NCBI RefSeq assembly: GCF_020177335.1
Contig: NZ_JAIVMG010000012.1
Span: 62,001 to 126,000, forward strand
Source: Stappia indica
GTDB taxonomy: Bacteria > Pseudomonadota > Alphaproteobacteria > Rhizobiales > Stappiaceae
DNA: 64,000 nucleotides
Direction: 5' to 3'
Part shown: positions 8,153-11,328 of the stretch, in pieces
Numbering within the stretch: position 1 is the first letter of the stretch
Layout of the letters: each line of letters begins with the position of its first letter
Made by a program: the position numbers and the translations under genes
Notes under the pieces: generated by a model
What the model saw: only the letters and a program-made list of their open reading frames with translations
Told to the model about the DNA's origin: nothing
Databases searched by the model: none

Positions 8153-8311
8153 GATGTCCAGCGCCTGATGAACGCGGCCAGCCCCGGGCGGCAGTGGCCA
8201 GACAGGTCTACGGTCGAGGCGGCCATCCTCGCCGCTGCCGGGCGTGCGCACCGTCGCGTGCGGGAGGCCCAGAGGCTATCCGACGGGAGTGGCAGGCAAG
8301 AGCCAGACGCG

Positions 8312-8337
8312 AAAAACCCCCGGCCGAAGCCGAGGGC
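8312..8337 (-). terminator. Intrinsic terminator of rpsL
   Basis: On the minus strand CCCTCGGC, a TTCG tetraloop and GCCGGGGG are followed by TTTTT. It lies about 40 nt after the rpsL stop, so rpsL is not cotranscribed with anything downstream. Confidence 0.88.
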
Positions 8338-8376
8338 ATTGTCGCAGCAGGTCTACCCAGAAACAAAAGCTGGTGC

Positions 8377-8748
8377 TTACTTCGGCCGCTTGGAGCCGTA
8401 GAGCGAACGACGCTTCTTACGATCCTTGACGCCCTGGGTGTCGAGCACGCCGCGGATCACGCGGTAGCGCACACCCGGAAGGTCGTTCGGGCCGCCGCCG
8501 CGAACGAGCACGACGGAGTGTTCCTGGAGATTATGACCTTCGCCCGGAATGTAGGCGGTCACTTCGTTGCCATTGGTCATGCGCACACGAGCGACCTTAC
8601 GCAGAGCCGAGTTCGGCTTACGCGGCGTCGTGGTGTAGACGCGAGTGCAGACGGCGCGCTTCTGCGGATTTCCGTTCAGAGCGGGCGTCTTGGACTTCTT
8701 GACGATAGGCTTGCGGTTCTGGCGAACCAACTGATTGATTGTCGGCAT
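8377..8748 (-). CDS. rpsL: 30S ribosomal protein S12, divergent solitary copy
   Basis: The 123 residues starting [10 protein letters not shown] give a full-length S12 of the decoding centre. In mature numbering, position 42 is Arg (TTTPRKPNS) where E. coli has Lys, and 85-87 are Gly-Pro-Asn (GGGPNDLPG) in place of Arg-Val-Lys; the modified Asp88 is kept. Positions 42 and 87 are the classical streptomycin-resistance sites. The gene has its own consensus-like promoter at 8795-8823 and a terminator at 8312-8337, and no rpsG, fusA or tuf follows, unlike the normal str operon. An in-frame extension to 8823 runs through the promoter, so I start at ATG 8748. It may be a second copy or the only one. 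Confidence 0.95.
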
Positions 8749-8794
8749 TGTGCGATACGGCTTGTTTTTGAGGAGATTGCTGTCTTGGCCGCTT

Positions 8795-8823
8795 CGTATA
8801 GGGGCAGCGGCCGGCTTTGTCAA
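8795..8823 (-). promoter_or_regulatory. rpsL promoter
   Basis: On the minus strand TTGACA (8818-8823) and TATACG (8795-8800) are spaced by 17 bp, a near-perfect sigma70 promoter. The leader is about 40 nt and carries no obvious Shine-Dalgarno. Confidence 0.75.

Positions 8824-8865: not shown

Positions 8866-11328
<2,463 letters not shown>

Follow-up and report, generated by a model that had tools for sequence, protein, structure and literature searches.

A solitary, divergent rpsL is the sole ribosomal protein S12 gene in the genus of Stappia indica

The window, which is the whole 64,000-nucleotide stretch of Stappia indica DNA analyzed here (G+C content, 65.9%), carries a gene for ribosomal protein S12, rpsL, separated by 117 nt from the upstream gyrB. 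Residues of S12 are numbered without counting Met unless stated otherwise. The features of the locus are as follows.

8377–8748, minus strand: rpsL, ribosomal protein S12 (123 aa), a complete CDS with a TIGR00981 match.
8866–11319, minus strand: gyrB, an ORF that is the upstream neighbor of rpsL in the same direction.
8795–8823, minus strand: rpsL promoter, TTGACA-N17-TATACG, read by eye and conserved in the genus loci.
8787–8812, no strand assigned: inverted repeat GGCCGCT/AGCGGCC around the rpsL −10 (arms at 8787–8793 and 8806–8812).
8311–8336, minus strand: intrinsic terminator of rpsL found by folding, with a 9-bp stem, a UUCG loop, and a U run.

A profile search matched the window protein to the bacterial S12 equivalog TIGR00981 over residues 1–123 (203.9 bits; cutoff, 112.95). 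A preliminary description of the locus had called rpsL solitary after gyrB, and this was confirmed: no match to rpsG, fusA, or rpoC occurs within 1.5 kb of the gene in any of the 14 loci from the window's genus, and in none of them does rpsL stand directly before rpsG, as it does in the str operon. The claim that rpsL has its own promoter and terminator also held, with the promoter recognized by eye and the 9-bp hairpin followed by a U run; a simple promoter/terminator scan of the window lists neither this promoter (position 6 is G) nor a terminator. TTGACA is present in all 14 genus loci and is followed by TATACG (12) or TATAGG (2). The terminator hairpin has a z value of −2.0, and 7 of 200 shuffles fold equally well. 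Perfect repeat arms around the −10 are 6–9 bp long in nine of the 14 loci (9 bp in L004; 7 bp in L001, L002, and L009–L012; 6 bp in L003 and L013) and merely 4–5 bp in the other five (L005–L008 and L014). The arms vary among species yet still pair in several, and the left arm sits upstream of the expected rpsL transcript start.

The window S12 carries R42, M56, G85, P86, N87, and R95 and retains Asp88. With R42, G85, and N87, it has the changes at positions 42, 85, or 87 that mark an S12 of the streptomycin resistance type. S12 was extracted from 120 of the 122 loci attempted (L086 and L117 were left out), and residues were compared across these sequences. The Arg42 and Gly-Pro-Asn (GPN, residues 85–87) described earlier are present in 14 of 14 genus sequences, and all 106 sequences from outside the genus, many of which were collected through their likeness to the window S12, have K42 and R85-V86 followed by K87 (95 sequences) or R87 (11). 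G31, L56, R85, and V86 are invariant in these 106 and altered in the genus. Relative to the family, the window protein is further changed by G31A, L56M, F60N, and H95R. In all, 31 consensus differences separate the genus S12 from 19 family S12s (genera g2, g3, g6, and g7), and in that alignment the genus has T, A, L, and V at family I63, G64, M80, and I81. The 19 family proteins have pairwise identities of at least 95.9% (median, 98.4%; range, 96–100%) and are 73.2–75.6% identical to the genus S12. Natural R42 is found elsewhere in the class Alphaproteobacteria.

A search of the window's genome, a 99.97% complete assembly of 4.66 Mb in 40 contigs, gave a single S12 match at E ≤ 10; the second rpsL that the preliminary description had envisaged was not found. 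All 14 genomes of the genus, two of which are only 85–89% complete, have a single rpsL, and their S12s are 97–100% identical to that of the window. A canonical rpsL alongside, as expected of a specialized paralogue, was found in none of the 14; with one rpsL per genome, neither a specialized second S12 nor a self-protection copy, both raised earlier, is supported. Codon differences among the genus rpsL genes average 25.8 synonymous and 2.2 nonsynonymous (91 pairs), and this mostly synonymous pattern indicates that the altered S12 is under purifying selection. The search of the family covered 87 genomes, 86 of which gave an S12 match. The S12s of the other 72 family genomes with a match are 73–76% identical to the window S12, and none is of the window type. 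Family genome G448 gave no S12 match, and in G424 a second hit is weak, partial, and interrupted by stops. An S12 match is also absent in genomes G044, G052, G803, and G806, possibly through assembly gaps, as for G448.

The usual place of rpsL, the str operon, was also examined. A query made of the first 69 residues of S7 located rpsG in all but two of the 14 genus genomes, the exceptions being assemblies that are 89% and 85% complete; in the other 12, it is on a different contig from rpsL or more than 1.5 Mb away from it. In the three genus str operons examined (G000, which is the window's genome, G002, and G013), rpoC, an intergenic stretch, rpsG, and fusA are present, but no rpsL stands between rpoC and rpsG. 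In these three operons rpsG is 88–90% and fusA 87–93% identical to Polymorphum, and both look native. In G002 and G013, tuf is 90–92% identical to Polymorphum, and tuf and rpsJ are native-looking; the G000 contig stops before tuf. Polymorphum gilvum, a relative from the same family (Stappiaceae), retains rpsL inside its str operon. A four-sequence search of the rpoC–rpsG gap for an rpsL remnant gave best genus matches at E values of 0.2–0.5, none convincing. Sequence that would have preceded the lost rpsL is partly kept (loci L131–L133), with ~73% identity to Polymorphum over 190 bases. Because parts of this leader survive the loss of rpsL, rpsG-fusA-tuf of the genus may retain the old str promoter.

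We searched for similar S12 proteins in other lineages. A class-wide pattern scan for R42 in 337 genomes gave nine matches, including the window's own, and eight of the nine are S12. Genome G491, which belongs to a genus of another order (g171), has an S12 with R42, M56, GPN, and R95. This type is the only S12 match in three of three g171 genomes, one of which is just 82% complete, and its rpsL is solitary within 1.5 kb on either side in all three. The family of g171 was covered by 12 genomes, 10 with an S12 match, and seven canonical loci in this family have the order rpoC-rpsL-rpsG-fusA. The GGPNDLPGV-type motif occurs in five of 397 genomes of the window's order, all five from the window's genus, in a pattern scan that misses other variants; in further samples the motif occurs in two of 398 genomes of the phylum and three of 61 genomes of the order of g171. 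Across this sampling it is rare. A 1.18-Mb plasmid of Indioceanicola profundi encodes an S12 that is 83.7% identical to the G491 protein by tblastn and has R42, GPN, and R95, but L56. No match to rpsG, fusA, or rpoC was found in the 49 kb around this plasmid rpsL. Plasmid records matching the window S12 number 68, the best at 77.2% identity and that of Indioceanicola at 75.6%. The solitary rpsL adjoins rimO in G797 and G798, where the two genes are convergent, and in Indioceanicola, where rimO is on the same strand directly upstream. The regions in which rimO neighbors a GPN-type rpsL are as follows.

L202, 6529–8369: rimO next to rpsL.
L208, 9449–11358: rimO next to rpsL.
L209, 1508–3367: rimO next to rpsL.

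In G491, by contrast, rimO has no match within 10 kb of rpsL. The product of rimO is a methylthiotransferase that modifies Asp88 of S12. Loss of RimO was considered as an explanation of the altered protein and found uninformative: no RimO match over the curated cutoff was obtained in the 14 genus genomes or in nine others searched (0 of 23), so canonical relatives fail the cutoff too.

A phage origin of the genus S12 was also considered and rejected, as the protein has no PHROGs match. Two viral contigs carry an S12 (73% and 69%), of which L116 groups with Flavobacterium (the L117 sequence was left out). An alignment scan using just two peptide patterns detected no relative, and none of six viral contigs with the motif yields an S12 match. 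Phage records with an S12 match number 18, with identities of 61.8–72.6% in the best 15 of the 18.

The preliminary description had allowed that the locus might be an ordinary lineage trait. At the level of the genus this is so: no second copy was found, and the relatives share the residues and the place of the gene. The trait is still not ordinary because the 72 other family genomes do not have it, rpsL is gone from the three str operons read, and unrelated lineages have a similar S12.

Phylogenetic analyses were used to compare transfer with convergence. In a 42-row alignment, six states are common to the window's genus (g1) and g171 and absent from the other rows. Simulated vertical descent gave a mean of 0.64 shared states and a maximum of 3, and none of 1,000 simulations reached six. 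Chance convergence of the g1 and g171 S12s under neutrality is therefore unlikely; adaptive convergence is a possible source of the shared states. Trees were made from 42 rows (g1 and g171) and 37 rows (Indioceanicola added), leaving out nine long-branch rows, L179, L180, L086, and L117. In unconstrained trees, g1 and g171 still group together when the trait columns are removed, both with Indioceanicola and without it. Constrained trees were compared by approximately unbiased (AU) tests, for which P values are given in pairs (LG+G4/mixture model); seven trait columns were removed from the trimmed alignments, and tests on all columns include the trait itself. Holding g1 with its own family was not rejected when trimmed (0.165/0.253; 0.166/0.22 with Indioceanicola added) and was borderline on all columns (0.052/0.10; 0.054/0.16 with Indioceanicola added), and the value had been 0.36 on all columns before g171 was known. 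The S12 tree with other alphaproteobacteria foreseen in the preliminary description bears on the question in two ways, joining g1 to g171 when unconstrained and leaving g1 with its own family unrejected. Holding g171 with its own family was not rejected when trimmed (0.191/0.573) and was rejected on all columns (0.008/0.028). Joint vertical descent, with both genera in their families, was not rejected when trimmed (0.073/0.225) and gave 0.016/0.099 on all columns, where it is rejected under one model only. With Indioceanicola added, the trimmed values for joint descent were 0.0136/0.018. This rejection is not decisive because the same tree also separates g171 from Indioceanicola, and the Indioceanicola-added trees may be under-optimized, with at least one search incomplete. 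An early quick tree placed the genus near Bacteroidota; this placement was dropped, as keeping the genus within its family was not significantly worse (P = 0.361), and a tree with the genus among the alphaproteobacteria scored 10.2 higher. The closest S12 outside the genus is 78% identical among the matches listed, and no donor is among them. On these sequence comparisons, a foreign displacement of the native S12 in the genus has a little over even odds.

The strongest alternative is vertical: the native rpsL would have moved to gyrB and evolved fast, with adaptive convergence at epistatically linked positions 42, 56, 85–87, and 95. We hold this to be a serious possibility that falls short of an even chance. 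The AU tests fail to reject g1 with its own family, both at 0.36 on all columns and in the trimmed sets. Further, three small alphaproteobacterial genomes (0.6–1.1 Mb) have an S12 with R42 and altered residues 85–87: KGPPDL in L178, whose protein is one residue shorter and was called S12 by eye; GPK in L179, with A31 and M56, inside a normal str operon; and HVP near residues 85–87 in L180. Their occurrence indicates that the combination can arise through convergence. When the trait columns are dropped, quick trees place g171 close to both Rhodospirillaceae and its own family. Against this, one quick tree proved to be a poor search, since a tree constrained to keep g1 with g171 was better by 14.5 log units, and the unconstrained trees join the two genera without those columns. 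The simulations set neutral convergence aside, and the T, A, L, and V of the genus at family I63, G64, M80, and I81 are states of distant S12s, for example, in actinobacterial chains.

Several of the altered sites have been linked to streptomycin. K43R (Met counted) gives extremely high streptomycin resistance in Agrobacterium (PMC10521367), and in Klebsiella K42R and K87R give an MIC of >1024, with a low cost for K42R (PMC4182516). For Thermus, PMC9456066 quotes streptomycin phenotypes of R85C/H and K87R/E. In Escherichia coli, R86S is synergistic with two other mutations (PMC13390409) and must be R85 when Met is not counted. G85 and N87 differ from the substitutions named in the accessible text of these resistance papers. 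Since sites 42, 85, and 87 are all changed, we predict an intrinsically streptomycin-refractory ribosome in the genus. The preliminary description had offered a relocated sole copy of a naturally resistant lineage; the gene is indeed relocated and sole, and the natural resistance is a prediction from sites 42, 85, and 87. An isolate named Stappia stellulata (Ss-F1) is reported to be resistant at 100 mg/L streptomycin, as are Rhizobium isolates in the same study (PMC4557100), and Agrobacterium carries strB (PMC10521367). The resistance of S. stellulata agrees with an altered S12 but may have another cause; it fits without proving S12 responsible because Rhizobium is also resistant and Agrobacterium has strB.

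The genus S12 shares its sites and ribosomal target with known rpsL resistance alleles (K42R, K87R, and R85 changes), but those arose by point mutation of the native gene, whereas the genus S12 is genus-wide and relocated, has 31 consensus differences from its family, and is altered at the three sites together. It shares family, length, and Asp88 with the str operon uS12 (TIGR00981); its gene instead lies outside the operon with its own promoter and terminator, and residues invariant in the 106 other sequences are replaced. Orthologous displacement of ribosomal proteins, such as S14, likewise involves a universal single-copy gene that was apparently displaced. For S12, however, 0 displacements were recorded when 40 universal gene families were surveyed across 191 species (PMC3151239). 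No relocated or displaced S12 was found in the accessible portions of the literature searched. The S12 family is already known; the placement, alteration, and recurrence of the R42-GPN type are new.

We consider it somewhat probable that the native rpsL was lost in the ancestor of the genus and that the solitary, divergent R42-GPN rpsL after gyrB took over, yielding a streptomycin-refractory ribosome. A solitary foreign rpsL related to those in the other lineages would have arrived in this ancestor. The native str operon rpsL would then have been lost, leaving the cell dependent on the single solitary rpsL after gyrB, and resistance would have been expressed only once the native sensitive S12 was gone. 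In rpsL counter-selection genetics, the sensitive S12 is dominant in cells that carry both types. We propose that the native rpsL was lost cleanly because a dominant sensitive S12 would mask resistance. More tentatively, a mobile, solitary, streptomycin-refractory S12 (R42, GPN, and R95) may have replaced the native rpsL on at least two occasions, in the genus and in g171, with an extrachromosomal form in Indioceanicola, and natural streptomycin-like compounds may have driven deletion of the native gene, so that drug resistance was fixed in the ribosome through gene displacement; we regard this broader proposal as plausible but somewhat less than probable. The odds of the foreign and vertical readings overlap because resistance is expected under the vertical reading as well. 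S12 is a strongly constrained protein. Whether displaced or rebuilt, the S12 of the genus would reveal which residues near the decoding center, invariant in other S12s, are dispensable. If the proposal is true, these would be natural ribosomes for studying accuracy and streptomycin action, and displacement would be a route to intrinsic resistance besides point mutation or drug-modifying enzymes. rpsL is a risky phylogenetic marker in the lineages of the genus, g171, and Indioceanicola.

It is improbable that the S12 changes compensate for a change in the decoding region of 16S rRNA and have no origin in drug resistance, and we do not favor this compensatory reading. In one 16S copy of Indioceanicola, just three columns differ where eight other alphaproteobacterial 16S sequences agree, and one of these is an A to G change in helix 27, at what we take to be position 906 (E. 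coli numbering). This change had appeared specific to Indioceanicola among the nine sequences, a view abandoned when it was later found in Acetobacteraceae records: the same G is present in Acetobacter, in Roseomonas, and in one record from Hyphomicrobiales. Counting Indioceanicola, four of 512 records match the probe at ≥99%. The probe in its Hyphomicrobiales form matched none of 512 records at ≥99%. The single Acetobacteraceae S12 that was read (L046) is canonical, with the 16S of L046 itself outside this comparison, and the h18 and h44 motifs of the Indioceanicola 16S match the others. Finally, an assembly or contamination artifact is extremely unlikely, given that 14 of 14 genus genomes agree in S12 sequence and gyrB neighbor and three of them are single contigs (G002, G008, and G010).

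Plasmid-borne 16S rRNA genes were seen in the same searches. The Indioceanicola plasmid has four 16S places, one of which was read. The 16S probe matches 532 plasmid records, and a 16S rRNA gene is carried on a 49-kb plasmid of Roseibium porphyridii (L217).
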